A DNA stretch of 33,961 bases from Tannerellaceae bacterium (GTDB taxonomy: Bacteria; Bacteroidota; Bacteroidia; Bacteroidales; Tannerellaceae), in NCBI GenBank assembly GCA_031269535.1, contig JAISZA010000050.1:1-33961 (forward strand), written 5' to 3'. The position numbers and the translations under genes are program-made. Below are positions 7,896-33,961 of this stretch, piece by piece (position 1 is the first letter of the stretch; every line of letters begins with the position of its first letter). The notes under the pieces were generated by a model. That model had not been told where the DNA came from and made no database searches. It saw only the letters and a program-made list of their open reading frames with translations.

Positions 7896-8227
7896 AAAAT
7901 TTTCAGTGTAGAGAACTCCTATTTATTTAGAATCATTCCATCTTAAGGCCCGGAGAGAATAATTTTTTTGTCGTCCTTAATCCCTTTAGAGTAAACGACT
8001 AAAAAAGGCATAAAAAAAAGTTGATTTTTCTCCCCCTTGAGAGAGAGGGGCAGGAAATGCCTTGTAATAAGGATTTTTCTCCCCTGGCAATACCAAGCCG
8101 GGAAGGGCCTATCAATAGATTGATTCTTAAACAAATAATCAAATTCGTAATTTCCAAATTAATCTTGTGTTTTTTTATTTGGATATAATTTCAACCTTTG
8201 TAGGGACAAAATATAGGAGTTTATACT
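7896..8227. other. Intergenic region before dnaA
   Basis: These 332 bases hold no supported gene. An AT-rich inverted repeat (7963-7974 with 7995-8006, one mismatch) and two weak CTCCCC-rich repeats (about 8030 and 8083) are visible. A partial -7 box, AACCTTTG at 8193-8200, stands 27 bases before dnaA but has no TTTG at proper spacing. I looked for DnaA boxes (TTATCCACA and close forms) and saw none, so I do not call an origin. Confidence 0.5.
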
Positions 8228-9625: not shown

Positions 9626-9645
9626 ATATTCTATTCTTTTTGTTG

Positions 9646-9680
9646 AAAAGGGCGACTTCGTATGGGGGTTGCCCTTTTTG
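9646..9680 (+). terminator. Rho-independent terminator after dnaA
   Basis: The stem AAAAGGGCGAC (9646-9656) pairs with GTTGCCCTTTT (9668-9678) through one G-T pair, with an 11-base loop and a short T run. It lies 20 bases after the dnaA stop. Confidence 0.8.
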
Positions 9681-9697
9681 TTATTTCTGTTTTTCTG

Positions 9698-9719
9698 AAG
9701 TTTTCCAAAATGGAAACTT
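9698..9719. promoter_or_regulatory. Small inverted repeat upstream of nrdJ
   Basis: AAGTTTTCCA and TGGAAACTT flank AAA, pairing with one bulged base. It lies about 115 bases before the promoter of the ribonucleotide reductase gene. It does not resemble the NrdR box consensus. A regulatory role is only possible. Confidence 0.25.
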
Positions 9720-9814
9720 TATATATTTCACAAATCAATAACTTTATGAGTATCAAATATTATTTGCCATATTTCGGAAAACTTTTCACTAAGTCGAATT
9801 TTATCATTATATAA

Positions 9815-9846
9815 TTTGGATAATAAATAAACTATTACTAAACTTG
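9815..9846 (+). promoter_or_regulatory. Promoter of nrdJ
   Basis: TTTG at 9815-9818, a 20-base spacer and TAAACTTG at 9839-9846 (one mismatch to TAnnTTTG) form a plausible Bacteroidetes promoter, 24 bases before the GTG start. Confidence 0.55.
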
Positions 9847-9870
9847 CAGTATAATTAAAAACAACACATA

Positions 9871-12405
9871 GTGGATCAGAAAAATTATACCTTCGATGAA
9901 GCCTTCAGCGCTTCATTAGACTATTTTACCGGTGACGAATTGGCCGCAAAAGTATGGGTTAATAAATATGCACTGAAGGACGCATTTGGTAATATATACG
10001 AAAAATCTCCCAAAGACATGCATCACCGTTTGGCAAAAGAAATTGCACGTATTGAGAAAAAGTATCCGAACCCCTTGTCGGAAAAGGAACTTTTCAACCT
10101 GTTTGACCATTTCAGGTATATCGTTCCTCAGGGGAGCCCTATGACCGGAATCGGGAATAACTTTCAGATTGCTTCTTTATCCAACTGTTTTGTGATCGGG
10201 CTTGAGGGGAATGCCGATTCCTATGGAGCCATTATCCGCATAGATGAAGAGCAGGTTCAATTGATGAAGCGCCGTGGAGGGGTCGGGCACGATTTATCGC
10301 ATATACGGCCCAAAGGCTCTCCCGTAAAGAACTCAGCGCTTACCTCGACCGGACTGGTGCCTTTCATGGAGCGTTATTCCAATTCGACGCGAGAGGTTGC
10401 ACAAGATGGCCGGAGGGGCGCCCTGATGCTGAGTGTCTCTGTTAAGCATCCTGACTCGGAATCGTTTATCAATGCCAAGATGCAGGAAGGGAAAGTCACC
10501 GGCGCCAATGTGTCGGTGAGAATTGACGACGAATTTATGAATGCTGTGATAAACGGCACAAGTTATACACAGCAATACCCGATAGATTCCCCCAATCCGA
10601 CAACCGTAAAACAAATAGAGGCCACCGCCCTCTGGAAAAAAATCATCCACAATGCCTGGCAGTCAGCCGAGCCCGGTGTTCTTTTCTGGGATACCATCAT
10701 CAAAGAATCCGTTCCCGATTCGTATGCCGACTTGGGATTCCATACCGTTTCGACTAACCCTTGCGGGGAAATCCCACTTTGCCCCTACGATAGCTGCCGC
10801 CTGCTGGCAATCAACCTCTATTCGTATGTTGTCAAGCCTTTTACCCCGGAAGCTTCTTTCGACTACGAACTATTCAGAAAACACGCTGCCCTGGCACAAC
10901 GCATCATGGACGATATCATCGACCTCGAATCCGAAAAAATAGAAAAAATACTGGAAAAGATAGATTCCGACCCGGAGTCAATAGAAGTGAGAAAAACAGA
11001 ACGATACCTCTGGGAAAAAATACAAAAAAAGACATTGATGGGACGGCGTACCGGCGTAGGTATTACAGCGGAAGGGGATATGCTGGCAGCTCTGAACCTG
11101 CGTTATGGAACGGATGAAGCCACAGCCTGCGCAGAGAATGTTCAGAAAACATTGGCCCTGGCCGCTTATCGCTCCTCGGTTACAATGGCAAAAGAGCGGG
11201 GCGCATTCGAAGTGTATGATGCCGGACGAGAGGAGACGAATCCGTTTATCAACCGCCTGAAAGAAGCCGACCCCGAACTGTATAACGATATGGTCGCTTA
11301 CGGGCGTCGCAACATTGCCTGTCTGACTATTGCCCCTACGGGTACAACCAGCCTGATGACACAAACCACTTCCGGCATCGAACCGGTCTTTCTGCCTGTA
11401 TATAAGCGCCGGAGGAAAGTAAATCCCAACGACGCCTCTGCACGGGTTGATTTTGTCGATGAAACAGGCGACGCTTTCGAAGAATACATCGTTTTCCATC
11501 ATAAATTCGTAACATGGATGCTGGCCAACGGCCATTCGACTTCCAAAAGATATACGCAGGAAGAAGTCGATGCCTTAGTAGCAAGTTCGCCCTATTACAA
11601 AGCTACTTCCAATGATGTGGACTGGCTCCGGAAGGTAAGGATGCAGGGACGTATCCAGAAATGGGTGGATCATTCCATCAGCGTAACCATCAATCTGCCT
11701 AATGATGTTTCGGAAGAATTGGTAAACAAACTTTATATAGAGGCCTGGAAATGTGGATGCAAAGGCTGTACGGTCTATCGCGAAGGCTGCCGCTCAGGGA
11801 TCTTACTGCCGACCGAAAAGAAAAAAGACGACCGTATCTGTCTGGAACCTCCCGTGATTGTTGCCAAACGTCCGCGTGAACTGGAGGCGGAGGTCGTGAA
11901 ATTCCAGAATAACCGCGAAAAATGGATTGCCTTTGTCGGACTGCTCAACGGACGCCCTTACGAAATATTTACCGGTCTGGCCGACGACGACGAGGGGCTG
12001 ATGCTCCCCAAGAATGTGTCCAAAGGGACAATTATAAAAAGCTACGACGACGACGGGAACAAGCATTACGATTTCCAGTTCAAAAACAAGCGCGGATTCA
12101 AAATGACTATCGAAGGGTTGGACGGTAAATTCAACCCGGAGTTCTGGAACTATGCCAAATTGATTTCCGGCGTGCTCCGTTATGCCATGCCGATCGACCA
12201 GGTGATTAAATTAGTACAAGGCATGGAATTGGATAATGAATCCATCAATACCTGGAAAAACGGTGTGGAACGCGCCCTGAAGAAATACCTTCCCAACGGG
12301 ACGACTGTCAAAGGCGATAAATGTACGAATTGCGGAAACGAATCGCTGACCTACCAGGAAGGCTGTCTGATTTGCACAAATTGTGGCGCCTCCAAATGTG
12401 GATAA
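9871..12405 (+). CDS. nrdJ: Cobalamin-dependent (class II) ribonucleotide reductase
   Basis: Class II enzymes reduce ribonucleotides to deoxyribonucleotides using adenosylcobalamin as radical source, with or without oxygen. The catalytic set is visible: Cys106 in SLSNC, the thiyl Cys298 with Asn296 and Glu300 in NPCGEIPL, and Cys309 as the likely redox partner of Cys106. A later PTGTTSLMTQTTSGIEPVF segment is typical of the barrel. The C-terminus ends in a zinc-ribbon-like region (CTNCG...CLICTNCGASKCG) supplying redox cysteines. At 844 residues it is normal. The start is GTG 9871, supported by position and promoter; no upstream ATG is in frame. I see no cobalamin riboswitch in the leader, but could not test folding. 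Confidence 0.94.
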   Translation: MDQKNYTFDEAFSASLDYFTGDELAAKVWVNKYALKDAFGNIYEKSPKDMHHRLAKEIARIEKKYPNPLSEKELFNLFDHFRYIVPQGSPMTGIGNNFQIASLSNCFVIGLEGNADSYGAIIRIDEEQVQLMKRRGGVGHDLSHIRPKGSPVKNSALTSTGLVPFMERYSNSTREVAQDGRRGALMLSVSVKHPDSESFINAKMQEGKVTGANVSVRIDDEFMNAVINGTSYTQQYPIDSPNPTTVKQIEATALWKKIIHNAWQSAEPGVLFWDTIIKESVPDSYADLGFHTVSTNPCGEIPLCPYDSCRLLAINLYSYVVKPFTPEASFDYELFRKHAALAQRIMDDIIDLESEKIEKILEKIDSDPESIEVRKTERYLWEKIQKKTLMGRRTGVGITAEGDMLAALNLRYGTDEATACAENVQKTLALAAYRSSVTMAKERGAFEVYDAGREETNPFINRLKEADPELYNDMVAYGRRNIACLTIAPTGTTSLMTQTTSGIEPVFLPVYKRRRKVNPNDASARVDFVDETGDAFEEYIVFHHKFVTWMLANGHSTSKRYTQEEVDALVASSPYYKATSNDVDWLRKVRMQGRIQKWVDHSISVTINLPNDVSEELVNKLYIEAWKCGCKGCTVYREGCRSGILLPTEKKKDDRICLEPPVIVAKRPRELEAEVVKFQNNREKWIAFVGLLNGRPYEIFTGLADDDEGLMLPKNVSKGTIIKSYDDDGNKHYDFQFKNKRGFKMTIEGLDGKFNPEFWNYAKLISGVLRYAMPIDQVIKLVQGMELDNESINTWKNGVERALKKYLPNGTTVKGDKCTNCGNESLTYQEGCLICTNCGASKCG

Positions 12406-12427
12406 TAAATGAAATACAGCATACCGG

Positions 12428-12460
12428 AAAGGCTGAACTTGCAAAAGTTCAGCCTTTTTT
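12428..12460 (+). terminator. Rho-independent terminator after nrdJ
   Basis: A perfect 13-bp stem (12428-12440 with 12445-12457) around loop GCAA ends in a T tract. It begins 22 bases after the nrdJ stop. Confidence 0.9.
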
Positions 12461-12470
12461 AATACATTTG
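12438..12470 (+). promoter_or_regulatory. Promoter of malQ inside the nrdJ terminator
   Basis: CTTG at 12438-12441, a 21-base spacer and TACATTTG at 12463-12470 give a near-consensus Bacteroidetes promoter 23 bases before the malQ start. The -33 part lies in the loop side of the preceding terminator stem, so the two signals share DNA. Confidence 0.55.
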
Positions 12471-12493
12471 CAGTGTAACTAAATCAGATAAAA

Positions 12494-15205
12494 ATGAAGC
12501 TTTCTTTTCATATAAATTTTCATACCATCTGGGGGCAAAAAATATGTATCGTCGGCTCAATCCCTGAGCTTGGCATGTGGGAAACAGCGCTTGCCAAAGA
12601 AATGGATTATGCCGGCGAAGGAAACTGGATACTCTCTATCGGGGTGGCGCCAGACACAGAGCTTGTCGAATATCGTTACTTTCTCAGAGTAAACGACCAG
12701 CAGGTATTTGAAGAATGGGAAAAGAATCATCGGATTACACTGGAAAAACAATCCCATACCTATACATTATATGATTACTGGCAGACACGTCCCGCAAACA
12801 TCGCTTTTTATTCTTCCGCTTTTACTAAAAGCTTGTTTGCCCACCCGTGTAACACTTATGAGCGGGCCATCCGAAGCGGGAAAAAACTGTCGGTTAAAAT
12901 ATCGGCGCCCCGCGTGGAAAAAAATCAATGCCTGGCCATAACAGGAAATCAGGAATGTATTGGCAACTGGAACCCTGGAAAAGCCTTGATCCTTAGCTGT
13001 GATACATTTCCCGAATGGCATATCGACCTGGATGCCGGAGAAATCCGTTATCCGCTGGAATATAAGTTCATTGTATGGGATACCGATACCCGTGAACCGG
13101 TATATTGGGAATCCGGGGAAAACCGTACATTGGATCTCCCCGCTCAGGAAAAAGGAGAAACAACGTATGTCTCAGGCCTTTATTTCCGGGAGAATCTGCC
13201 GCCCTGGAGATGCGCCGGTTCGGTTATTCCTGTCTTTTCTCTGCGTTCGGAAAATAGTTTCGGAGTAGGCGATCTGGCTGACTTGCGTTTGTTTATCGAC
13301 TGGGTAAAAAAAACCGGCCAGCGGCTGATACAAGTATTGCCGGTGAACGATACGACTGCCACCTGTACATGGACCGATTCGTATCCTTACAGCGCCATTT
13401 CCATTTACGCCCTGCATCCGATGTATATCAGCCTCCCGTGGATGGGAGTCCTGAAAGATGTGCGGCTGGCAGCTGTCTTCGCTGAAAAGCAAAACGAACT
13501 CAATAGCCTCGGAGAGATTGATTACGAGAGAGTAGTAGCCTGCAAAACCGCATATTGCCGCGCCTTCTTTGAGCAGGAAGGAGAGCAGTGGCTGGAAACG
13601 GATGAGTTCAGGGAGTTCTTTTCCGGAAACGAAGAATGGTTGGTTCCATACGCTGCGTACGCTTACTTCCGCGATAAGTACCAGACAACTGATTTCCCGA
13701 AATGGGGAAGCGATGCCGTGTACAACAAGGCGCGCGTTCAGAAGCTCTGTAGCCGCGGGAGCGAAGCATGGCCTGGAATAGCCTTCTCTTTCTTTTTGCA
13801 GTTTGTCCTGCATAAGCAGTTTAAGGCTGTTTCCGATTACGCGCGTAAAAACGGAATCGTGCTGAAAGGTGATTTACCCATTGGAGTCAATCGCAACAGC
13901 GTAGAGGTATGGACTGCTCCTCAGTGTTTTAATATGAATGGACAGGCCGGAGCTCCGCCCGATGATTTCTCCGTCAGCGGGCAGAACTGGATGTTTCCTA
14001 CTTATAACTGGGAGGTGATGGAAAAAGACCGGTATAGGTGGTGGAAAAAGCGGTTTGCCAAATTGAGCGATTATTTCGACTGCTTTCGTATCGACCATAT
14101 CCTGGGCTTTTTCCGTATCTGGGAAATCCCCCTGGATTATACCGAAGGTCTGTGCGGGCATTTTAACCCGGCCCTTCCCTTGTCGAAAGAAGAAATTGAG
14201 CAGTATGGACTTTCTTTCAACGAGAGTCGTTTTACCACGCCCCATATCCACTGTCAGCACTTTCCCGGACTGTTTGGCGAATATGCTCATGAGGCCGAAG
14301 ACACTTACCTGCTGCAATCCTCTTCCCGTCATTTTGTTTTAAAGCCTTTCTGTGATACGCAGGCAAAGATCGGAACGGTTTTTGCCGGAAGAACCGACAA
14401 GGCCTCACAGCAGATAAAGAGCGGCCTGCTCTATATAGCCAATGAGGTCTTATTCGTGCGCGATCCCTATCAGAAGAAACGCTTTCATCCGCGCATCTCG
14501 GCATCTCAATCGTTTCTATACCGCGAATTGAGTAATGCCGACCGTTATGCGTTCGACTATCTGTATTGGGACTTCTTTTACCGGAGGCATAATGATTTCT
14601 GGAAAGAGCAGGCTTATAAACGGTTGGCTCCCCTGATTGTCTCTACACAGATGCTGGTATGTGGCGAAGATTTGGGCATGATACCGGACTCCGTACCCGA
14701 AGTGATGAACAAATTACAGATTCTCAGTCTTGAAATAGAGCGCATGTCGAAGACGCCTGAGCGCGAGTTTGCTTATCTGCCTCATTTACCCTACCTTTCC
14801 GTTTGTACTACCTCTACACACGATATGCCGCCCCTCAGGAACTGGTGGAAAGAAGACCGCGAAAAGACCGAGCGGTATTATAACCAGGTATTGCAACTGC
14901 CCGGTGAGGCACCTGCCGAATGTACGGCCCGCATAGCTGAGCAAATCATTGCAAACCACCTGGGTTCGCCCGCCATGCTGGTGATCATTCCGCTGCAGGA
15001 CTGGCTTGCCACAGACGAGGCGCTGAAACGGGAAGATTACAGCGCCGAGCGAATCAATATCCCTGCCCATGCGGCTCATTATTGGCGTTATCGCATGCAC
15101 ATAACAATTGAAGAATTGCTGAAAGCGGATACGTTTAATGATAGAATAATTTGTTTAATAAAAAACAACGGACGTGCGCCTGCCCACCTTCCTGTTATTC
15201 TTTAA
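12494..15205 (+). CDS. malQ: 4-alpha-glucanotransferase (amylomaltase) with two N-terminal CBM20 domains
   Basis: The enzyme transfers alpha-1,4-glucan segments between maltodextrins and releases glucose, in glycogen and starch metabolism. Residues about 1-105 and 125-230 are two starch-binding CBM20-type domains (each with an IVGSIPELGMW- or ITGNQECIGNW-like motif). The GH77 catalytic barrel follows from about 240. Nucleophile Asp534 stands in FRIDHILGF and the acid/base Glu725 in CGEDLG; STHDMPPLRNWW carries the third conserved acid. There is no signal peptide, so it is cytoplasmic. The 903-residue, CBM20-bearing form is like plant DPE2 and known Bacteroidales enzymes. Its stop overlaps the convergent bactofilin gene by 11 bases. 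Confidence 0.94.
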   Translation: MKLSFHINFHTIWGQKICIVGSIPELGMWETALAKEMDYAGEGNWILSIGVAPDTELVEYRYFLRVNDQQVFEEWEKNHRITLEKQSHTYTLYDYWQTRPANIAFYSSAFTKSLFAHPCNTYERAIRSGKKLSVKISAPRVEKNQCLAITGNQECIGNWNPGKALILSCDTFPEWHIDLDAGEIRYPLEYKFIVWDTDTREPVYWESGENRTLDLPAQEKGETTYVSGLYFRENLPPWRCAGSVIPVFSLRSENSFGVGDLADLRLFIDWVKKTGQRLIQVLPVNDTTATCTWTDSYPYSAISIYALHPMYISLPWMGVLKDVRLAAVFAEKQNELNSLGEIDYERVVACKTAYCRAFFEQEGEQWLETDEFREFFSGNEEWLVPYAAYAYFRDKYQTTDFPKWGSDAVYNKARVQKLCSRGSEAWPGIAFSFFLQFVLHKQFKAVSDYARKNGIVLKGDLPIGVNRNSVEVWTAPQCFNMNGQAGAPPDDFSVSGQNWMFPTYNWEVMEKDRYRWWKKRFAKLSDYFDCFRIDHILGFFRIWEIPLDYTEGLCGHFNPALPLSKEEIEQYGLSFNESRFTTPHIHCQHFPGLFGEYAHEAEDTYLLQSSSRHFVLKPFCDTQAKIGTVFAGRTDKASQQIKSGLLYIANEVLFVRDPYQKKRFHPRISASQSFLYRELSNADRYAFDYLYWDFFYRRHNDFWKEQAYKRLAPLIVSTQMLVCGEDLGMIPDSVPEVMNKLQILSLEIERMSKTPEREFAYLPHLPYLSVCTTSTHDMPPLRNWWKEDREKTERYYNQVLQLPGEAPAECTARIAEQIIANHLGSPAMLVIIPLQDWLATDEALKREDYSAERINIPAHAAHYWRYRMHITIEELLKADTFNDRIICLIKNNGRAPAHLPVIL

Positions 15206-23269: not shown

Positions 23270-23275
23270 CTTTTC

Positions 23276-23453
23276 CCCCATAGACTTTTAACGAAAAATC
23301 CTTCACTCCCTCACAAAGGGTATAAGCCTTTGGGTGACAAATTATTAATGCGTGAAGGACGGGAGTTTTATCCTTCACACCTTAACTTTATGTCGTTCAG
23401 CTGCTTATACCCTCCGTGAGGGAGTGAAGGATTTTTCGTCGAAAGTCTATGGG
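23276..23453. mobile_element. 178-bp palindromic element, copy 2, with about 52-bp terminal inverted repeats
   Basis: The ends 23276-23327 and 23403-23453 are inverted repeats that begin CCCCATAGACTTT and share ATCCTTCACTCCC. One internal hairpin (GTGAAGGA near 23352 with TCCTTCAC near 23371) lies between. The left end matches the reverse of the right end of copy 1 over about 65 bases, including CCAAAGGCTTATACCC. It fills the space between the stop codon of the permease gene and the his promoter. Both neighbours are read on the minus strand, and no other terminator is seen, so a transcript of the element may fold and end the upstream operon. Confidence 0.68.
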
Positions 23454-24707
23454 CTAAAAAAGGAAAAGAAGTTGGTATCCTGAAAAGGTAAGCATAGCAA
23501 GCACGGCGCCTATCAGGGATTCGTATCCTATTAATCTCAGCCGTTCTTTCAGTTTCATATCTACCGCGCCTGCTGTGGCGTGGAAGAATGAACCATGAGG
23601 GAGGTGGTCTAAAATCGTAGCCCCCGAATTGACCATCGCCGCTCCCCATACGGCAGGAATCCCGGCCGCCAGGATGACGTCGGCAAACGAAGCGGAAGCC
23701 AGGGTGGCACCGGCCGTAGTAGAAGCCGTTACGGCCGACATCAATGCTCCGGCAACCGGCGCAATAAACGACTCATCTAACGACAGACCGTTTAATGCGA
23801 CCAACAACCCATCTTTCAGCGTAGAATGTTTGATGATTCCGGCGATCGTACCGGTTCCTATCAGCAAGACGGCAACAAGCAACATTTTCTCCAATCCGTA
23901 GGCCAAGCTGATTCGAAGCTGTCGGCAGCGCCGCATTAGAAGAATCCCTGTCAAGCCACCGGCGGGCAAGGCTATCAAAGGGTCTATCACAATCCCACAA
24001 ACAGGACGAAGCGCCAGCAGGAGGATAGCGACCAGCGGCCCGGCCATGCTGCCTGCAAAGGACGGGAGCGGACCGGCCTCTTCTGCCTCATCCAACGATT
24101 CCGTAACCCATTCTCCTTTAAAAGGAAATCGCTTGACTAACCAAACAGAAAACAGCAGCCCTATCAGTGCCGGAATGAGATTGACATACATCACCGACGA
24201 CAAAGCGGCATTGAAATTCTCGGCAGCAATAATGGTATTCGGATTCGGAGAAATGATATTCCCGCATTTCCCTCCTCCAATCATGGCTAAGAGTAAGGTC
24301 ATCCTGGAATAATTCATCTTTTTGCCGATAGCCAGAGTAATGGGAGCCACAGTGATGACGGCTACGTCAATGAAAACGCCGATTGCCGTCAACAAGAAGG
24401 TAGATAATACCAAAGCGATCGTTGATTTACGCTCGCCCAGTGTCTGTATAATGGTAAGCGCGATACGTGAAGCCGCCCCTGTTTTTATCAACACTCCCGA
24501 CAATACGCCGGCAGTAAGGATACGAAGAATCGCCGGACTGATGTCTTTCGCCCCTTCAATCATAAAGGAGACCGTTTCGGACAAAGAGAGTCCTCCCGCC
24601 AAGCCTCCGGCGACGGCTCCCAATATGAGGCTGTAAGCGGCATTGTACTTTCTGAGAATCAGAATGATTGCCACTAATAAGCCAATCATCGCACCGATAG
24701 CTGTCAT
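23454..24707 (-). CDS. GntP-family acid:H+ symporter
   Basis: GntP-family permeases import gluconate, related aldonates or D-glycerate with protons across the inner membrane. The 417 residues are almost wholly hydrophobic, with about 12 membrane segments. The conserved GKCGNIISPNPNTIIAAENF region lies near residues 150-170, and TGIL- and GTIAGIIKHS-like segments follow in the second half. It starts 10 bases after the glycerate kinase stop, which points to glycerate or a related hydroxy acid as substrate; gluconate remains possible. Its TAG stop (23454-23456) abuts the inverted-repeat element. Confidence 0.88.
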   Translation of the reverse strand: MTAIGAMIGLLVAIILILRKYNAAYSLILGAVAGGLAGGLSLSETVSFMIEGAKDISPAILRILTAGVLSGVLIKTGAASRIALTIIQTLGERKSTIALVLSTFLLTAIGVFIDVAVITVAPITLAIGKKMNYSRMTLLLAMIGGGKCGNIISPNPNTIIAAENFNAALSSVMYVNLIPALIGLLFSVWLVKRFPFKGEWVTESLDEAEEAGPLPSFAGSMAGPLVAILLLALRPVCGIVIDPLIALPAGGLTGILLMRRCRQLRISLAYGLEKMLLVAVLLIGTGTIAGIIKHSTLKDGLLVALNGLSLDESFIAPVAGALMSAVTASTTAGATLASASFADVILAAGIPAVWGAAMVNSGATILDHLPHGSFFHATAGAVDMKLKERLRLIGYESLIGAVLAMLTFSGYQLLFLF

Positions 24708-24717
24708 TAGTTATTAA

Positions 24718-25863
24718 TTATGTGGATTTGAATGTATATATAATGTAGCATAGCTGGCTAACCAATCTTTTTATGTTCGCTTTTGCAAATCCAGGCTCCA
24801 TAGCCTTTTCCGGAGAAACGGGACCGGGGGTGATGGTAAAAACGCTCCGAAACCCGGCCTCATTCAACCATGTTACATCCTCTATGCTTCCAGCTATGAC
24901 CACAACAGGAATATGCTGTTTCTCTGCTTCTTTCAATATACCGAAAGGCAGTTTACCCATAGCCGTTTGCCTATCTGCTCTTCCTTCTCCGGTAATAATC
25001 AAGTCTGCATTCCTTATTTTCTCTTCAAAACAAAGTGTATCGAGCAAAAGTTTTATTCCCGGTTTTAAGGTTGCGTTCAGGAAAGCGAGGCAACCTCCTC
25101 CCATACCTCCGGCAGCTCCGGTTCCGGGATAAGTGGCTATATCTTTTCCTGTTGTTTGCCGTATTATATTGGCCAAAGAGCGCATTCCGGCATCCAATTC
25201 CTCTATCATATTATCGTCGGCTCCCTTCTGACGGGCATAAATATGAGCCGCTCCATTGGGGCCATAAAACGGGTTATGCACATCGCAGGCAACTATAAAC
25301 CAGGCTTCTTTCAAAGCCGGATATGCAGAGGAAGTATCGATCGAGGCTACTTCTATCAGTATTTTTCCTCCCACTCCCAAAGCATTCCCGTTTTTATCAA
25401 GGAAACGAAAACCTAAGGCCTGGAGCATGCCCAGGCCTGCGTCGTTTGTCGCGCTGCCTCCTATTCCAATAATAAAATCACGGCATCCTCGTTTCAAGGC
25501 ATCTTTAATCAATTCGCCTGTTCCAAAAGAAGTAGTCAGCATCGGGTTTCTCTTGTTGGCAGGCACTAAAGGTAGTCCACTGACAGAGGCCATTTCAATC
25601 AATGCTGTTTTGGCACCACCAGATATACCATATATCGCCTGTACCGGATTCATCAGCGGATCGTGTGCCGTTACCTGTATATATTTCCCCTTCATAGTAG
25701 ACAAAAGGGCATCTAAAATTCCCTCTCCTCCATCAGCAACAGGAAGTAAGAATATTTCACAGTCCGGGAAAACACATGCCACCCCTTCTTTTGCCGCCTG
25801 TCCTGCTTCTATAGAGGTCAAGCATCCTTTAAAAGAATCTATTGCAATAATTACTTTTCTCAT
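24718..25863 (-). CDS. Glycerate kinase, GarK/GlxK type
   Basis: The enzyme phosphorylates D-glycerate, giving 2-phosphoglycerate in the GarK class, which enters lower glycolysis. The N-terminal segment IIAIDSFKGCLTSIEAGQAA and PVADGGEG are signature blocks, followed by IGIGGSATNDAGLGMLQALG near residues 132-151 and a late TGEGRADRQTAMGK segment. At 381 residues it is full length. Its start overlaps the amidohydrolase stop by 4 bases (ATGA), so the two are translationally coupled. The product position (2- or 3-phosphoglycerate) is from family knowledge. Confidence 0.93.
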   Translation of the reverse strand: MRKVIIAIDSFKGCLTSIEAGQAAKEGVACVFPDCEIFLLPVADGGEGILDALLSTMKGKYIQVTAHDPLMNPVQAIYGISGGAKTALIEMASVSGLPLVPANKRNPMLTTSFGTGELIKDALKRGCRDFIIGIGGSATNDAGLGMLQALGFRFLDKNGNALGVGGKILIEVASIDTSSAYPALKEAWFIVACDVHNPFYGPNGAAHIYARQKGADDNMIEELDAGMRSLANIIRQTTGKDIATYPGTGAAGGMGGGCLAFLNATLKPGIKLLLDTLCFEEKIRNADLIITGEGRADRQTAMGKLPFGILKEAEKQHIPVVVIAGSIEDVTWLNEAGFRSVFTITPGPVSPEKAMEPGFAKANIKRLVSQLCYIIYTFKST

Positions 25864-26954
25864 ATATCTTTAAACATATTCATTATTCCAAGTGCATTTT
25901 TATTGTATATTTTTTCAAGCACCTCGTCGGGTAAATGCAATCCGTGAATCATCCACCGACCTTGAAATTTATGAGCCGGGGCAGGGTCGAAGTATTCGTC
26001 GTCGGTTTCCAGGAAGCGGTAATGCATCCGATATGCTTCAGCATTGGGATAAGTATCCGTACCGAAGAGTATCCGATCCTGATGCTGTATCATAAATTTT
26101 CTTGCTGTATAGGGCTGTCGTCCTAATTCGGCAATCCGGGCGTCTATATCCACATACAAATTGGGATATTTTTCCAGCCACAGGGATACGCGCCCAAGGT
26201 CTTCTGAAAGATTAGCCATATGAGCTCCTATGAAAATGGTATTCGGATGCCTCGCTATGACTCTGTTTCTTTGCTCCAGCAGTTCTTCTTTGAGAGGGAC
26301 ATCCGTACCAAAATATGCCCACGCAGGATTTTGCGTTAATTCCTCGTACCGTTCATTGTAACGGTCCACCGCTCCATCATGAAAAGCTTTGGGGTCTGAC
26401 GAATGGATCATGACAGGGATGCCCAATTCTCCACATTTGGCCCATACCGGGTCAATCCGAGGGTCATCAATGGATATCAGTTTACCGCTTTTGTCTCTTA
26501 GAGTCAATCCCAATGCTTTGTATATTTGTAAGCCTCGGATACCTATTTTCACGGCTTCCTCCAGTTTTTCCGCTTCCTTCCTTCCAAAGTCCGGTTCATC
26601 TATCCGGCTGAAATCCGGTGCGAAATAGATATGAAACCTTTCTTTGGAAAGTCCGTGTGACACCTTCAGATGTTCCTTATAAGCGTCCTTTTCCGATAGT
26701 CCATCCAATCCGACACATATCCATACGCCGGCCTTATCCATCTCTTCCAGATAATAAGCTGCCCTGCTGAGGTCTCTTAAGTGATTGTGGATGTCTATCA
26801 CCGGATATTTCGGTTTGATTATCTTCGTTTCCTTTACAACCAACCGGGCTTTCGGCTCCCAGTCAAGGAGCCGAAGATCGCCCGTTTGAGCACTCACGAA
26901 CATCGTAGTTGTGAGAAAGAAGACAAACAATCCATTTATTTTTCCCCTATACAT
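25860..26954 (-). CDS. Exported amidohydrolase (amidohydrolase 2 type)
   Basis: This is a metal-dependent TIM-barrel enzyme of the amidohydrolase superfamily. Members hydrolyse lactones and amides, or decarboxylate acids. Metal-site motifs are in order: D-I-H-N-H with His56 and His58, His184 in MIHSSD, His245 in IGAHM, and Asp300 in FGTDT. A signal peptide (about residues 1-22, ending VSAQ) places it in the periplasm. Most of the characterised lactonases and decarboxylases of this group are cytoplasmic, so export is notable. It lies 14 bases after the putative glycosidase and overlaps glycerate kinase. A sugar-lactone or ester-like substrate is a guess from context. Confidence 0.85.
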   Translation of the reverse strand: MYRGKINGLFVFFLTTTMFVSAQTGDLRLLDWEPKARLVVKETKIIKPKYPVIDIHNHLRDLSRAAYYLEEMDKAGVWICVGLDGLSEKDAYKEHLKVSHGLSKERFHIYFAPDFSRIDEPDFGRKEAEKLEEAVKIGIRGLQIYKALGLTLRDKSGKLISIDDPRIDPVWAKCGELGIPVMIHSSDPKAFHDGAVDRYNERYEELTQNPAWAYFGTDVPLKEELLEQRNRVIARHPNTIFIGAHMANLSEDLGRVSLWLEKYPNLYVDIDARIAELGRQPYTARKFMIQHQDRILFGTDTYPNAEAYRMHYRFLETDDEYFDPAPAHKFQGRWMIHGLHLPDEVLEKIYNKNALGIMNMFKDI

Positions 26955-26968
26955 GGTGTCATCCTGTA

Positions 26969-29275
26969 TTAAGTAAGTACCACCACTTCGTGATTTAAGA
27001 CGGAAGCCAGTTGGAATTTACACCATCCCCCTTCCGTTTCTGCAACGATTCTTTGCCCGCTAACTAAGAGGCTGGGGAAGTCGCCTCTCACGTCTTGGGG
27101 CAGTCTGACTTTTACGGTGATAGGGCCAACCGGGATGAATTCATCCAGCGACGCCCTCCAGGTAGCCGCACTTGTGAGATTAACAAGGTGGAGAATGACC
27201 TTCCCCGGTTGCCTGTACATATTGCAATCTATCAATCCGGGGCCGGCGACCGACAGCGGGAAGTCATCTTTCGCCGCCCACCGTATGATATTGGAGAGCA
27301 GATTCCCGTGATCCGGCAAATTATGGCGTCCGAACTGTCTGTCTATATCTGCTGGCATAAAGACAATCCGACTACCATTGGGGCGCGTATGCACGACAAG
27401 TCCGGGAATATCCGTCTTTGGTTCCCGCATCCACGCTGTTTCCGGAGGATAGATGGGGAACTCCGGGATAAAAGTCATCAAGACCTTGGCATTCGGTTCT
27501 GTTTTTAATGGTGTAAGCATACCACCAAAAGGGTAAATATCGGTTAGTTCAAAGCCTTTTAATATCGCATGACGTTCATCCGCTATCGCAGGTTCGGTAC
27601 CTGTTTGCGGCCCATACACCATACTGCGCATTTCGGGATTCAGTCTCAGGTACGTATGATACGTACGGGACAGATTATACACATTTTCCTTTTTATCTTT
27701 TGCGATGGCATGCGTTATGAACAGATCACTTAAGGCGTAATCCTTCAGTGATTCTCCGTCTTCGTTATACAAGGATGTTTCGCCTGTGGCAAATAAATTT
27801 CCTCCTTTTTCCACAAATCGTTTCACGCCGGCCGCCTGTTCGCTCGTCATACTTCCCACGTTTGGGAGTATTAACAAATTAAATATTGAAGCATCACGGC
27901 CTACATGATCTATATGAACCGGTTGATAAGGAATCCTGGCCCGGATAAGCGCCTGGATAATGCCCCGCCATGGCAGATTAACTTTCATTTCGGCTTCGTC
28001 ACGTCCGTAGAAATCCGTATTATCCTGCGACCATACCACCCCGACGGTTCCGATAGGTTCCCTATTAATTAAAAACTCTTCATTCGCTTTATACCACTTG
28101 AATATGGGTTCCGCTGTATGATACATCCGGCGGTCTTCATGGTAAGCCGCTATATGATGCCACCAGGGCTGAATCCCGCCGGCGAAGCCCTCCAGCATCC
28201 ACAGATGCGCTTCCTGTTCGGGTTTGGAAGAAACACGAAATGTAGGTCTTCCTGCCTGATACATGGCCATGCTATTGGGGATTAGTTTATTCCATCCAAG
28301 CAATCCATGGATGATTTTGCCTGTATCCGACAAGTTCTGGAATCCGGAAGCGTCATTTCTCGACTGGTGGTCGAGCATAATGATATCTGCTCTTTTACAT
28401 ATTTCTTTGAAGTCACGAAAACTATTCGACTGCCCGCTGATGGAGCCGCTGTTCATTCCCGACCAGATACAATCCGGGCCTCCCGCCGCTTGGGTTGTTT
28501 TGTTATTCAAATCCCATATTTCCAATCGCTGATCATAATTCCATCTTATCCATTGACGATAGACCGGGTCGTCCCAGTTTTTTTTCCCAGGAAGTTCTTT
28601 TCCTGTTTTCTCCCGGAAACTTTTTCTGCAATTTTCGCAATAACAGATGGAATTGCGTCCCAGTCCGCTCCAGCTATTGTCCGTGAAACCTTCGGGATGG
28701 TAAAGGTTTGATATTTCGGTAAGGATAGCCGGAATATGCTCTTTGTAATACGGGCTGTTGACACAAGTAATATACAGGTCTTCTGTCCGGTATGGTTTTT
28801 TGTTCGCGTCGATAGCAAACCAATCGGGGTGAGCTTTATAGAAATCTTCATTGGCCCGATTGGAGTCCATCCGGGCAAAAACGACTAAGCCATCTTCATG
28901 AGCCGCACGGCATAAATCTCCAAAAAGATCACGCCCTTGCAGATACTTAGCCTGATAATGAAGAGGTATTTTAGTTGGATAATAAGCCACAATACCTCCT
29001 GCATTAATAATAACGCCCTGCACATGTGTCTTTCTCCAATGATTACGCCACCAGTTAATATCATAAATGACCGGATCTTTTTCAGTTATATTTGTTTGTC
29101 CCCAACGAGTAATCCTGCGATACCAGGGAGTTTCCTCCTCTACCGGCTGAGAGGAAGTATCGTTCGCCATAGCCGCAACAATCCGGTTGCTACCGGCCAG
29201 CGACAAAGTTGCTGCGGTAGCTCTTTTTAAAAAACTTCTGCGGCTCTTATCTGAATTTGTTTTTTCAATTCCCAT
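26969..29275 (-). CDS. Tat-exported putative glycoside hydrolase (hypothetical glycosyl hydrolase 6-like)
   Basis: The 768-residue protein starts with a twin-arginine signal (SRRSFLK, Arg12-Arg13, then an Ala-rich hydrophobic stretch), so it is probably folded before export. Residues about 60-330 look like a TIM-barrel domain. The segment HPEGFTDNSWSGLG with Asp199, followed by CYCENCRKSFREKTG (Cys211, Cys213, Cys216), is the pattern I associate with Pfam hypothetical glycosyl hydrolase 6. Residues about 405-560 resemble a GH42-type trimerisation (glutamine-amidotransferase-like) domain, including LILPNVGSMTSEQ. The C-terminal 150 residues are beta-rich. Catalytic acids cannot be fixed; Asp199 is a candidate. 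Substrate is unknown. Confidence 0.78.
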   Translation of the reverse strand: MGIEKTNSDKSRRSFLKRATAATLSLAGSNRIVAAMANDTSSQPVEEETPWYRRITRWGQTNITEKDPVIYDINWWRNHWRKTHVQGVIINAGGIVAYYPTKIPLHYQAKYLQGRDLFGDLCRAAHEDGLVVFARMDSNRANEDFYKAHPDWFAIDANKKPYRTEDLYITCVNSPYYKEHIPAILTEISNLYHPEGFTDNSWSGLGRNSICYCENCRKSFREKTGKELPGKKNWDDPVYRQWIRWNYDQRLEIWDLNNKTTQAAGGPDCIWSGMNSGSISGQSNSFRDFKEICKRADIIMLDHQSRNDASGFQNLSDTGKIIHGLLGWNKLIPNSMAMYQAGRPTFRVSSKPEQEAHLWMLEGFAGGIQPWWHHIAAYHEDRRMYHTAEPIFKWYKANEEFLINREPIGTVGVVWSQDNTDFYGRDEAEMKVNLPWRGIIQALIRARIPYQPVHIDHVGRDASIFNLLILPNVGSMTSEQAAGVKRFVEKGGNLFATGETSLYNEDGESLKDYALSDLFITHAIAKDKKENVYNLSRTYHTYLRLNPEMRSMVYGPQTGTEPAIADERHAILKGFELTDIYPFGGMLTPLKTEPNAKVLMTFIPEFPIYPPETAWMREPKTDIPGLVVHTRPNGSRIVFMPADIDRQFGRHNLPDHGNLLSNIIRWAAKDDFPLSVAGPGLIDCNMYRQPGKVILHLVNLTSAATWRASLDEFIPVGPITVKVRLPQDVRGDFPSLLVSGQRIVAETEGGWCKFQLASVLNHEVVVLT

Positions 29276-29335
29276 TGTTTTTGATGTTATGAACTTTATA
29301 ATGATTTATTGTGTTAGGATAAGTTGATGACAATA

Positions 29336-30781
29336 TTAATCATATCCAGGATTTTGCGCTAATATTGCCGGATCATTTATTAGTTGAACCTGACTTAACG
29401 GGATTGGGAAAACAGTCATATAGGGCATCATCCCAACATCTTTCATTACATTATACGCCTGCCCCGTTCTTATCAGGTCAAACCACCTGACTCCCTCAAA
29501 CGATAATTCCAACCTCCTCTCAAGAAAAATGGCATCTCGTGTTTCCGATTGGGTCATCGTCGCAGGATAAGCTTCTAATCCTGCTCTGGTACGTACTTCA
29601 TTCAAAAAAGGAATGGCTTCATGAGGTTTTCCGTTTTCATTTAATGATTCCGCATACATCAGCAATACATCGGCATAGCGAATCACCTTCCAGTTCGCCT
29701 TACTGTCGCTCCGAACCGGAGAACTGACAATATATTTTTTTGTATAGGTCTGGTTCGTACTGGTCGGTAATGGGCGAAAAACTGAATCTGAGATGTAATA
29801 ACCACCCGGAATACCTATGGTTATTTCTTTTCTTAAATCATTGGGAGCAAATAAATCCACCAAAGATTGGGTGGGATTATTATGCTCTTCTCCTGCTCCG
29901 ACGATTCCGAAAGATTGAGACATTTCAGTAGAATTAGGTAAAAAGGCGATCGTATAACTACTCCCTTCTCCCATTCCCGATTCGTATTCAATATCGAATA
30001 TGTATTCGCTATGATGTTCGGATTTAGAATAGTCAAACAAATCTGCATAGTCAGGGAGTAAGCTATAGCCCATTGTTGTTAGCTCTTTCAGTTTACTTTC
30101 CGCATTGTGGAAATCGCCTTTCGTCAGATACACTCGTCCCAGCAGAGCTTTTGCAGCTCCATTAGTTGGCCTTCCTGCATCTCTTCCCGAATAATTCTCA
30201 GGTAATGCGTTTTCCGCAGCCGAAAAATCCGGTATGATTATATTTGTATAAATATTCTCGACAGGCTCTCTCGGTATGTGATATGATTCCTGAATTGTAA
30301 CCGGAGTAGTAACAGCTGGTACATCTCCAAAAATCCGCACCAAGTCAAAATAAGCCAAAGCTCTCAGAAAACGTGTTTCTCCTATATAGCGTTTTTTATT
30401 GGGAACCGTTGCCTCATCCACATTTTCAATTTTAGATAATACAGTATTGGCACGGAAAATCGCCTGATAATAGTTCTGCCAGGTAGAATTCATCAATCCA
30501 TCACTACTTGTTGTAGTAAATAGGTCGGAATAGGATTGGCTGTTGTTTTTATATATCTGTTCCCATGAATCATCGGCCCTGATATCTCCAAAGATATAAA
30601 AACTTTGATACTGACTTTGAATCGTGTTGTAAGTAGCCGTTATAGCATCGGCAAAATCTTTATCTGTTTTGTACAAAATATCCACACTTACCGTAGATGT
30701 CGGGATCAAATCAATAAAATCATTTGAACAGGATGGCATTAACAAATATATGGATATTATTATATTTACTATTTTTTTCAT
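29336..30781 (-). CDS. SusD-family surface glycan-binding lipoprotein
   Basis: SusD-like lipoproteins sit on the outer face of the outer membrane as lids over their SusC partner and capture the nutrient. A lipoprotein signal ends in LMPSC with Cys18, followed by SNDFIDLIPTS. The TPR-like half has YIGETRFLRALAYFDLVRIFG (about 130-152, split here only for description), and the C-terminal half has WKVIRYADVLLMYAESLNE and LERRLELSFEGVRWFDLIR, all hallmark SusD motifs. The length of 481 residues is typical. It starts 12 bases after susC. The ligand cannot be inferred from the sequence. Confidence 0.95.
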   Translation of the reverse strand: MKKIVNIIISIYLLMPSCSNDFIDLIPTSTVSVDILYKTDKDFADAITATYNTIQSQYQSFYIFGDIRADDSWEQIYKNNSQSYSDLFTTTSSDGLMNSTWQNYYQAIFRANTVLSKIENVDEATVPNKKRYIGETRFLRALAYFDLVRIFGDVPAVTTPVTIQESYHIPREPVENIYTNIIIPDFSAAENALPENYSGRDAGRPTNGAAKALLGRVYLTKGDFHNAESKLKELTTMGYSLLPDYADLFDYSKSEHHSEYIFDIEYESGMGEGSSYTIAFLPNSTEMSQSFGIVGAGEEHNNPTQSLVDLFAPNDLRKEITIGIPGGYYISDSVFRPLPTSTNQTYTKKYIVSSPVRSDSKANWKVIRYADVLLMYAESLNENGKPHEAIPFLNEVRTRAGLEAYPATMTQSETRDAIFLERRLELSFEGVRWFDLIRTGQAYNVMKDVGMMPYMTVFPIPLSQVQLINDPAILAQNPGYD

Positions 30782-30793
30782 AACAATACAGTA

Positions 30794-33700
30794 TTAAAAT
30801 GATACATTTATCCCCATAATTAAACTCTTTGCAATCGGATAGTTATAATTCATCTGTCCGGGTGTCAATGGATTTGTACTACTACTGACCTCCGGATTAA
30901 AATCTCTGAATTTTGTAATTATAAATGGATTCGTGGCTGTCAGGTATATCCTCAACGAACTCAAACTTAACTTTTCAATCATTCGAGTGGGGAATGTATA
31001 ACTAAGATTGATATTATTTATTTTCAGATACGACCCATCATCCAGGTACCGGGTTGATTTTTGTCTCACCCCTCCTGTCGGAAGATTATTCGGACGTGGA
31101 CTTTCACCATCGCCCGGTTCCGATTCCGACTTCCAATAATTTTTTACGACAGCGTATTGTTTATAGCGGGCTCTCGTGTACATTTGAGTATCGCTGGTGT
31201 TAAACACTTTATTTCCATAGGAACCTTGAATAGAAAAACTCAATCCAATATTTTTATAAGAAAAGCTATTAATCATTCCATAATAAAAATCGGGATAAGG
31301 ACTTCCCATAATAGCCCGGTCATACGTATTGATAATGCCGTCAGGGATGCCTTCCGGACCACTGACGTCTTTGAATCTTACGTCACCAACATGCGATCTG
31401 TCTGAGGTACCTGGCGCCCAGATAGGCCCGGCATCCAGTTCCACCTGATTCATAAAGATGCCATCTGTTATATACCCGTAAAACATACCCATCGGCTGAC
31501 CAATTTGAGTGATATGATTCGTGCTTATAATAGGAGCTCCCTCCGGTCCTAATTTCAGGACTTTATTTTTAAAAGCGGAGATGTTAAAATCAGTATTCCA
31601 TTCAAATACACCGGAAAAATTTAGCGTATTTAAAGTAAACTCCCAACCGCTATTTTCAACTTCTCCAATATTTTGAAGCGAAGTATTAAATCCGGTAATT
31701 TGCGGGACATAAACATTGAGTAGTAATTCGTAGTTTTTTGTTCTGAAATAATCAACTGTCAGATTAATCCGGTTATCGAACAAGCTGGCATCTAATCCGA
31801 AATTTAATGAACTTTGTTTTTCCCAGGTTAGCAATGCATTTTCAATATTGGATGGGGAAACTCCTCCAATCGCAGTATTACCAAAGACATAAGATTCGTA
31901 TCCTACAGTTGCCAAATGTGCGTAATTACCAATATTATTATTCCCTGTTTCACCATAACTGGCACGAATTTTCAGATTACTGATCAGGCTTATTTCTTTT
32001 ATGAATTCTTCTTCCGACACTCTCCATGCTAATGCGGCTGAGGGGAAATATCCATATTTCTTTTCCCTCCCAAAGCGGGAAGAACCATCCGACCGGATAG
32101 AAGTAGTAATATAATATTTGGAATTATAATTATAATTTATCCTTGCCAGATAAGAGATTAACGACCACTCGCTTTCATCAGAATTTCCCTGATAAATATC
32201 ATTACTTACCGCATTCAATGTATAAACCAGATTATTGGGATAGCTTCGACTTCGGATATAATTAGAATTATTTTCTTGCTTCTGTGTTGTATATCCAATC
32301 AAGCCTGAAACATTATGTATATTATTAATACTTTTCTGGTAATTTAAAGTTGATTCGGTTATCCAATTTAAATTGTTCGACCGTTCGTCGGTTCCATCTG
32401 CCGTATTATTAAAAACATCCAACTTAGGTATAAATGAATAATAGTGTCGATTAGATGTACTAATTCCTGCCATTATATTCAATTTGATATTATTTGTTAT
32501 TTCAAACTCTGTATTCAAATTTGCCAACGTTCTATATTGCTCATTTCTTCTTATTATTTCATAGGCTTGCGCCACAGGATTCCATACATTATTTGTTGCA
32601 TCCTGTCCGAATCCACTGTAATAAGTTCCGTCTTCGTTGTACAAGGGATACCATTTTAACCATGTAGTCGCGGCTCCAAGAATACCTTCGGATTCAGCAG
32701 CTCCACCCGAAGCCAAAATATTCTTACCGGTGGAATAAACAGAGTTAATATTAAATTTAACAGCTATTCTTTCCGATAATTGCGAGTCTAAATTTGCTCT
32801 TAATGAATATCTCCTGAAATTATTCGTTATGATAATCCCATCCTGTGCCATATACTCGCCGCTCACAGCATATCTTAATTTATTCGTACCTCCCAGAGTT
32901 GACAGGTTATAACTTTGCTGTGGCGCAGTCTGAAATATTTCATCATACGCATCGGTATTGTACTTGTTTGTACCGTTAATTACATCCATGATTGTTTGCG
33001 GAACCTGGTAAAACCAATCCACTAACGGATTTCCGTTAATGTCTCTGTTAGCATCCAGATTCTGGTTTTTTATTCCATCATAATAATACCATGCTTGTTC
33101 TTCTTTAGTTAGAAATTCCGGAGTTTTCAAAACTTTTTGCCAGCCGTAATATACGTTCAAATTAATTTTGTTTTTCCCTTCTTTGCCTCTTTTAGTAGTG
33201 ATTATCACAACTCCATTTGCTCCTCTTGAGCCATAAATTGCTGTTGCAGAAGCATCTTTTAAGATGTCTATGGTTTCAATATCGTTGGGGTTTATCATTT
33301 GAATATTATCTCCCGGAAATCCATCTATCACATACAAGGGTTCTGTTCCTGCGGATATACTTCCTACTCCTCTGATTCTAATCAATGGAGCAGCCCCCGG
33401 CTCTCCGGTAGTTGATACAACTTGTACCCCAGCTAATTTTCCACTCAAAGCCTGATCAACTCTTGAGATGGCAAGATTCTGTAAATCATCCGACTGTACT
33501 TGCGAGATAGAGCCTGTCAGGTCTTTCTTCTGTGCTATTCCATATCCTACTACTACGATTTCATCCAGAGTCTGCAAATTTTCTTTCAATACAATCCGCA
33601 CATTTGTTTGATTCCGTACGGGTATTTCTTGTCCCAGATATCCGATATAAGAGATTTGTAATACACTATTCTGCAATATGTTTAAAGAAAATTTACCATC

Positions 33701-33961
33701 TATATCGGTAATGGTTCCATTGTTGGTTCCTTTTTCTATCACATTTGCACCAATAATAGGTTCAGCATTCGCGTCAGTCACTATTCCGGTGATTATTCTT
33801 CCGGTTTGTTGGCTTACCTGCGGAACAAGATTTGAATCGTCACTTTTATACAATATAATATGTTTATCATCTATCGTATATCCGATGTTTTCACCTGCAA
33901 ACACTTTATCCAATACCTCCACTACCATCTTATTTTTTATATTGACGGAAACTTTTCGTGT
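30794..33961 (-). CDS. SusC-family TonB-dependent outer-membrane transporter, 5' end beyond the window
   Basis: This is the outer-membrane pore that imports the substrate using TonB energy. An STN-type domain at the N-terminus (through about GENIGYTIDDKHIILY) is followed by a carboxypeptidase-like beta-sandwich (ITGIVTDANAEPIIGANVIE...), the plug (DEIVVVGYGIAQKKDLTGSI onward), and a 22-strand-type barrel to the C-terminal NVSF. The frame stays open past the internal ATG at 33926-33928 to the window end, adding VSVNIKNK and other STN-like residues. The true start and signal peptide are therefore outside, and the ATG is not the start. An STN domain in SusC proteins usually goes with an anti-sigma/ECF sigma pair. 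Confidence 0.94.
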   Translation of the reverse strand, partial: TRKVSVNIKNKMVVEVLDKVFAGENIGYTIDDKHIILYKSDDSNLVPQVSQQTGRIITGIVTDANAEPIIGANVIEKGTNNGTITDIDGKFSLNILQNSVLQISYIGYLGQEIPVRNQTNVRIVLKENLQTLDEIVVVGYGIAQKKDLTGSISQVQSDDLQNLAISRVDQALSGKLAGVQVVSTTGEPGAAPLIRIRGVGSISAGTEPLYVIDGFPGDNIQMINPNDIETIDILKDASATAIYGSRGANGVVIITTKRGKEGKNKINLNVYYGWQKVLKTPEFLTKEEQAWYYYDGIKNQNLDANRDINGNPLVDWFYQVPQTIMDVINGTNKYNTDAYDEIFQTAPQQSYNLSTLGGTNKLRYAVSGEYMAQDGIIITNNFRRYSLRANLDSQLSERIAVKFNINSVYSTGKNILASGGAAESEGILGAATTWLKWYPLYNEDGTYYSGFGQDATNNVWNPVAQAYEIIRRNEQYRTLANLNTEFEITNNIKLNIMAGISTSNRHYYSFIPKLDVFNNTADGTDERSNNLNWITESTLNYQKSINNIHNVSGLIGYTTQKQENNSNYIRSRSYPNNLVYTLNAVSNDIYQGNSDESEWSLISYLARINYNYNSKYYITTSIRSDGSSRFGREKKYGYFPSAALAWRVSEEEFIKEISLISNLKIRASYGETGNNNIGNYAHLATVGYESYVFGNTAIGGVSPSNIENALLTWEKQSSLNFGLDASLFDNRINLTVDYFRTKNYELLLNVYVPQITGFNTSLQNIGEVENSGWEFTLNTLNFSGVFEWNTDFNISAFKNKVLKLGPEGAPIISTNHITQIGQPMGMFYGYITDGIFMNQVELDAGPIWAPGTSDRSHVGDVRFKDVSGPEGIPDGIINTYDRAIMGSPYPDFYYGMINSFSYKNIGLSFSIQGSYGNKVFNTSDTQMYTRARYKQYAVVKNYWKSESEPGDGESPRPNNLPTGGVRQKSTRYLDDGSYLKINNINLSYTFPTRMIEKLSLSSLRIYLTATNPFIITKFRDFNPEVSSSTNPLTPGQMNYNYPIAKSLIMGINVSF

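Follow-up and report, generated by a model that had tools for sequence, protein, structure and literature searches.

The window analysed here is the whole of contig C249 (33,961 bases), part of a Tannerellaceae genome assembly that is fragmented (251 contigs) and estimated to be ~88% complete. Positions 23454-33961 are filled by six minus-strand open reading frames, which Pfam and NCBIfam profile scans name as SusC, SusD, a GHL6-family enzyme, an Amidohydro_2-family hydrolase, a glycerate kinase and a GntP-family permease (Table 1); read from susC to gntP, the intervals between them measure 12, 60, 14, -4 and 10 bases. A first-pass annotation had described these genes as a close-set operon that resembles a polysaccharide utilization locus (PUL) and leads to glycerate, and the coordinates, gaps and profile-based names all agree with its gene list; that the six form one transcription-unit-like cluster is supported by spacing and gene content. 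The set is more than a chance assemblage, since its core order recurs in two relatives. Between gntP and hisH lie 229 bases containing a large, very stable palindrome (RNA fold -113 kcal/mol, z -18) that marks the operon boundary; promoter-like sites showed no excess over shuffles, and terminator-like sites stood only slightly above them.

Table 1. Genes of the operon and the repeat at its downstream end (positions in the window).
Feature	Position	Strand	Evidence
susC-like TonB-dependent outer-membrane transporter, 5' end cut at contig edge	30794..33961	-	TIGR04056 942 bits; Plug, CarbopepD_reg_2, STN
susD-like surface lipoprotein, lipobox-like ...LMPSC	29336..30781	-	PF07980, PF14322
GHL6-family glycoside-hydrolase-like enzyme, 768 aa, twin-arginine export signal	26969..29275	-	PF14871 1.7e-19
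Exported Amidohydro_2-family metal-dependent hydrolase, Sec-type signal	25860..26954	-	PF04909 1.1e-24
Glycerate kinase, GarK/GlxK family	24718..25863	-	TIGR00045 488 bits, PF02595 480 bits
GntP-family permease, inner membrane	23454..24707	-	PF02447 82.8 bits; TIGR00791 ~75 bits, below cut-off
Dispersed palindromic repeat, operon-end hairpin between gntP and hisH	23270..23459		Inverted arms; RNA fold; genome matches

The first two genes, adjacent on one strand and 12 bases apart, match TIGR04056 and PF07980/PF14322 as a PUL pair does, which supports the uptake role proposed for their products. Homologues of the SusC occur in three related loci (loci are numbered with L) at 69% (L025), 65% (L043) and 54% (L029) identity, and the SusD shares 67-72% identity with its counterparts in L025 and L026. 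Over its first 179 bases the window susC is ~98% identical to the SusC start that ends contig C7, and the two genes are divergent thereafter; this near-identical STN segment of two different SusC genes (window 33783-33961 and L117:10698-10876 on contig C7) may be the cause of the contig break. On contig C7 the paralogous SusC comes after genes for an extracytoplasmic function (ECF) sigma factor and a FecR-like protein, an arrangement shared by susC in L043, and regulation by a sigma/anti-sigma pair is therefore plausible, by analogy, for the window operon too.

The two exported enzymes

The GHL6 protein begins with a twin-arginine motif (SRRSFLKRA; RRxFxK in the consensus of 43 relatives) and is composed of a TIM barrel followed by Rossmann-like and beta domains, with a cysteine cluster (Cys171/211/213/216) that resembles the zinc site of GH42. 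Its AlphaFold model (predicted local distance difference test, pLDDT, 88) has as best whole-length fold match the GH151 alpha-L-fucosidase 6tvk (Z 28.6, 626 residues, root-mean-square deviation 3.2, 15% identity), the next matches being GH42 beta-galactosidases (Z ~25; identity again <=15%). By sequence, the family profile finds 6tvk at 2.4e-16; a PDB search with the window protein alone gave weak matches only, and the Pfam GH42 profile scores 25.1 bits (cut-off 21), covering just positions 76-164 of its 376. The proposal that this protein is the operon's only candidate glycosidase thus gains from its predicted fold, that of GH151 and GH42 glycosidases, and we consider the glycosidase-like fold well supported by the model.

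Published work on GH151 (PMC10154630) places the nucleophile, D154, where strand beta-4 ends and the acid/base, Glu235, where beta-6 ends. From the profile match to 6tvk and this published assignment, D199 of the window protein, present in 43 of 43 subfamily-A rows and placed by DSSP directly after strand 196-198 (i.e. at the end of beta-4, as in GH151), probably corresponds to D154. D302, likewise invariant in the 43 rows, lies just past strand 299-301, so that, by strand position, an aspartate would stand where GH151 uses Glu235. A second group (subfamily b, 15 rows) keeps Arg135, Asp137, Arg306 and Asp381 in every row. A literature search for GHL6/PF14871 found no paper on GHL6. The enzyme is rare (9 of 125 genomes of the bacterial family at E 0.001; 3 or 4 of ~395 in wider samples at 1e-60), and the group occurs in Bacteroidota, Acidobacteria, Planctomycetes, Actinobacteria and Rhizobiales.

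In the amidohydrolase the residues of a putative HxH/H/H/D metal-ligand pattern (H56/H58, H184, H245 and D300), read from the sequence, are conserved in the alignment of three orthologues; an AlphaFold model built from these three rows was poor (pLDDT 48) and was not used. An amidohydrolase near GHL6 in rhizobia was rejected as a shared partner, and its co-occurrence left uncounted, because it is not closely related to the window protein.

Recurrence of the operon core and partners of GHL6 elsewhere

The window kinase belongs to the GarK/GlxK family (488.3 bits against TIGR00045, cut-off 168.45, residues 3-374 aligned to positions 1-371 of 375) and matches PDB 3cwc at 7e-87. The permease is a member of the Pfam GntP family (cut-off 22.5 bits) and falls outside the gluconate:H+ symporter subfamily (TIGR00791, 74.9 bits against a cut-off of 292.75). 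GntP stands beside GarK in only six inspected loci of the family, three of which are this operon; GarK-GntP pairs devoid of SusC/SusD are found in L135, L136 and L159. A second GarK is encoded elsewhere in the genome, so the operon copy is not simply the only one; this second gene lies at a contig edge (L116:1-2471, contig C3), tail to tail with a homologue of LarA-type nickel-dependent hydroxyacid racemases that scores below the LarA cut-off.

Comparison with related genomes, as the first-pass annotation had advised, showed that the core recurs in two relatives. In L025 (= L033) the order SusC-SusD-GHL6-amidohydrolase-kinase-permease is repeated with an extra second GHL6 gene, and L026 (= L074) has the series from a shorter SusD through GHL6, amidohydrolase and kinase to GntP, with no adjacent SusC. 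The L026 operon (7317-13154) is seemingly decayed or misassembled, as its GHL6 is devoid of residues ~460-643 and its GntP of residues ~163-297, both with frame intact, and its SusD of its start. The same annotation held that finding the genes separated in relatives would speak against it, and this is partly the case: SusC/SusD and GHL6 occur without the GarK/GntP tail in L030, L035 and L041-L044, and GarK is mostly found alone, yet functional equivalents often take the place of the tail.

The kinase tree places the window kinase with those of other genera, nearly all free-standing, and the kinases of L025 and L026 in another clade; forcing the three into one clade costs 115 log-likelihood units (approximately unbiased test, p-AU 1e-71), and the permease tree (six rows only) has the same split. 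These trees show that the kinase and permease tail of the window and that of L025/L026 had different sources. Two lineages have therefore each added the tail to this core or swapped it there, as is expected if the core yields glycerate.

Furthermore, GHL6 enzymes of other bacteria are accompanied by non-homologous kinases and permeases. In L043/L044 the order is SusC-SusD-GHL6-GHL6-YhcH-DUF4147/MOFRL glycerate kinase-LctP-type lactate/glycolate permease; this pairing of a MOFRL-type kinase (a family unrelated to GarK) with a lactate/glycolate-type permease beside GHL6 is present in Prolixibacteraceae and another Bacteroidia. Among Rhizobiales, L112 has a MOFRL kinase near GHL6 and L108 a remnant of one, and both loci have ATP-binding cassette (ABC) importers of oligopeptide/oligosaccharide type instead of SusC/SusD. 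Within subfamily b, L121 reads GHL6-LctP-D-2-hydroxyacid dehydrogenase-distant GarK; L122 is devoid of a kinase within the stretch covered; L029 reads SusC-SusD-GHL6-LctP-tartronate semialdehyde reductase (above cut-off)-AP_endonuc_2, with the start of a dehydrogenase at the contig end. A set similar to that of L029, with two GHL6 genes, is found in L027. The reductase, the D-2-hydroxyacid dehydrogenase and the distant GarK are thus partners of GHL6 in further Bacteroidota. Outside the window, seven kinases (one a remnant) were counted near GHL6 in related loci, against 0.5 to 1.5 expected, a rough Poisson estimate that can serve only as a guide because it ignores relatedness. The glycerate end point proposed for the operon is thus backed, at the level of gene content, by several separate partnerships, and we consider it well supported because the GHL6 family is paired with two unrelated glycerate kinase families and two permease families. 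A protein of ~860 aa (L107:4044-6605 and relatives) lies near GHL6 in 24 loci of Rhizobiales, Planctomycetes and Bacteroidota; it has no Pfam match.

A candidate route to D-glycerate

Taken together, we consider the locus to be a PUL-like catabolic operon that converts a small glycoconjugate into a hydroxy acid, most likely D-glycerate, and this into phosphoglycerate (we give this explanation as a whole a probability of about 0.6). SusC/SusD would bring the glycoconjugate through the outer membrane; the GHL6 enzyme, exported by the twin-arginine route and built on a TIM barrel like that of retaining glycosidases (GH151/GH42 kind), would cleave it in the periplasm; the exported amidohydrolase would act on a further bond (a lactone, ester or amide), opening or removing it; the freed small hydroxy acid (C3, or C2), most likely D-glycerate, would cross the inner membrane via the GntP permease; and the GarK-type kinase would phosphorylate glycerate for entry into glycolysis. 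Gene content, spacing, conservation, fold and the recurrent pairing of the enzyme family with glycerate kinases and hydroxy-acid-type permeases are what the analysis shows directly; that cleavage is periplasmic, that the steps follow in this order, that glycerate is what crosses the inner membrane and that the substrate is a glycoside is what we infer, glycerate being the simplest product because the operon's one intracellular enzyme is a glycerate kinase. The substrate of the kinase may likewise be glycerate derived from glyoxylate or hydroxypyruvate, and not only glycerate released directly. As for the substrate of the operon, the evidence favours no single compound: glucosyl- or mannosylglycerate (the examples named by the first-pass annotation) would fit, and so would any compound yielding glyoxylate or hydroxypyruvate. 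A D-apiose/apionate reading (possible C2 and C3 products) was dropped, as no specific gene supports it.

Like the SusC/SusD PULs of Bacteroidota, the operon has tandem susC/susD genes followed by exported enzymes on one strand, with ECF sigma and FecR genes before susC in a related locus; unlike them, it is devoid, by Pfam scan, of any characterised CAZy-family enzyme, and its last two genes encode a glycerate kinase and a permease of hydroxy-acid type. Escherichia coli has a glyoxylate/allantoin route (gcl-hyi-glxR-glxK) and a galactarate route (garR-garK). The GarK/GlxK-family kinase, and the tartronate semialdehyde reductase of the window's relatives, recall these routes, whereas in the window SusC/SusD and an exported, glycosidase-like enzyme accompany the kinase, and the operon has no reductase. 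The known glucosylglycerate-cleaving enzymes, glucosylglycerate hydrolase (PMC6608630) and the GH13_18 glucosylglycerate phosphorylase (PMC11009771), are alike in that they would give D-glycerate from a glycerate glycoside; they differ in family, as neither GH63 nor GH13 (including GH13_18) is matched in the Pfam lists of all six proteins. The best reading is, in our opinion, a PUL variant in which a hydroxy acid (C3, or C2) would be released in the periplasm, taken in by GntP and phosphorylated.

The main rival explanation is that the freed compound is a C2/C3 keto acid (glyoxylate, hydroxypyruvate or tartronate semialdehyde) or glycolate, the window operon holding the last step only, with earlier steps elsewhere in the genome, and other lineages making glycerate or malate. 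Its rank among the rivals reflects the reductases and the true malate synthase found with GHL6 in other lineages. Tartronate semialdehyde reductase scores above cut-off in L027 as well as in L029, and near GHL6 there are also AP_endonuc_2 proteins (hydroxypyruvate isomerase belongs to the same fold family), a D-2-hydroxyacid dehydrogenase resembling glyoxylate reductase, LctP permeases and, in L027, glycolate-oxidase-like proteins. In eight Kribbella loci (L077, L078, L080, L081, L086, L096, L102 and L103) the gene immediately after GHL6 encodes a malate synthase A (762 bits against a cut-off of 594.5 in L080, the one tested), and a divergent relative of malate synthase occurs in L041 and L043, where in L043 it comes after LctP. 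Against this, no tartronate semialdehyde reductase above cut-off was found in the window's own genome (at ~88% completeness), and in the window, L025, L026, L043 and L112 the stretch covered contains a kinase close to GHL6 but no such reductase; we regard a keto acid or glycolate as a rather unlikely product of the window operon.

We find it less likely still that the kinase and permease make up a cassette of their own, serving free glycerate or some other hydroxy acid, which landed behind a SusC/SusD operon digesting something unrelated and is merely read through. The GarK-GntP pairs devoid of SusC/SusD and the differing origin of the tail would be in keeping with such a cassette, whereas the joining or exchange of tails on the same core in two lineages, the -4 base overlap in the window, the non-homologous kinases and permeases beside the same enzyme family and the surplus of kinases over expectation (relatedness ignored) argue against it. 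Breakdown of a glycan containing uronic or aldonic acids, with glycerate arising downstream from sugar-acid cleavage, appears highly improbable: GntP transporters often carry aldonates, rhizobial loci have oligopeptide/oligosaccharide-type importers and the ~860-aa protein weakly resembles alpha-D-galacturonidase, but that similarity (52 bits) is far under the cut-off (1300), and a sugar-acid dehydratase, aldolase and isomerase are all absent from the operon.

Returning to a glycerate-releasing operon, several observations weigh against it. The window SusC is incomplete, its STN domain broken off at 33961, the contig end; GarK is present in 59 of 125 genomes of the family, usually single and free-standing; many GHL6 loci have no glycerate gene in the stretch covered; the malate synthases beside GHL6 (Kribbella, and the divergent relative in L041/L043) point to glyoxylate, not glycerate, in those lineages; and the putative nucleophile position Asp199 is often Ser in subfamily b. 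To our knowledge, moreover, no enzyme activity has been described for this GHL6 group, nor, in the operon, for either exported enzyme (GHL6, amidohydrolase).

The substrates of PULs are usually inferred from known carbohydrate-active enzyme families; here it is the context that indicates a non-sugar product, glycerate. A literature search found no paper linking SusC/SusD loci with glycerate metabolism, and the ties between GHL6 and glycerate genes, here and in distant bacteria, suggest a route, as yet undescribed, for using a glycerate-yielding compound. If true, this would give an uncharacterised GHL6 group a testable activity and would add a new route of carbon use, perhaps one for glycosides of osmolyte type. 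Only tentatively would we go further and view the GHL6 group as a glycosidase family for hydroxy-acid glycosides (of glycerate, perhaps glycolate/glyoxylate), and as the basis of a widespread catabolic module that different phyla have put together repeatedly, each from importers (SusC/SusD or ABC) and permeases (GntP or LctP) of its own and a glycerate kinase of one of two unrelated families.

Repeats and neighbouring genes

The palindrome that follows gntP belongs to a dispersed repeat of ~105-190 bases, which also occurs at positions 113-217 and 358-462 of the window. It has 114 matches across the genome, often as close inverted pairs, and is similar to a miniature inverted-repeat transposable element or a bacterial interspersed mosaic element. 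Elsewhere in the window (8228-15205, plus strand), dnaA, ribonucleotide reductase and a GH77/CBM20 4-alpha-glucanotransferase follow in succession, an ordinary stretch of genes.

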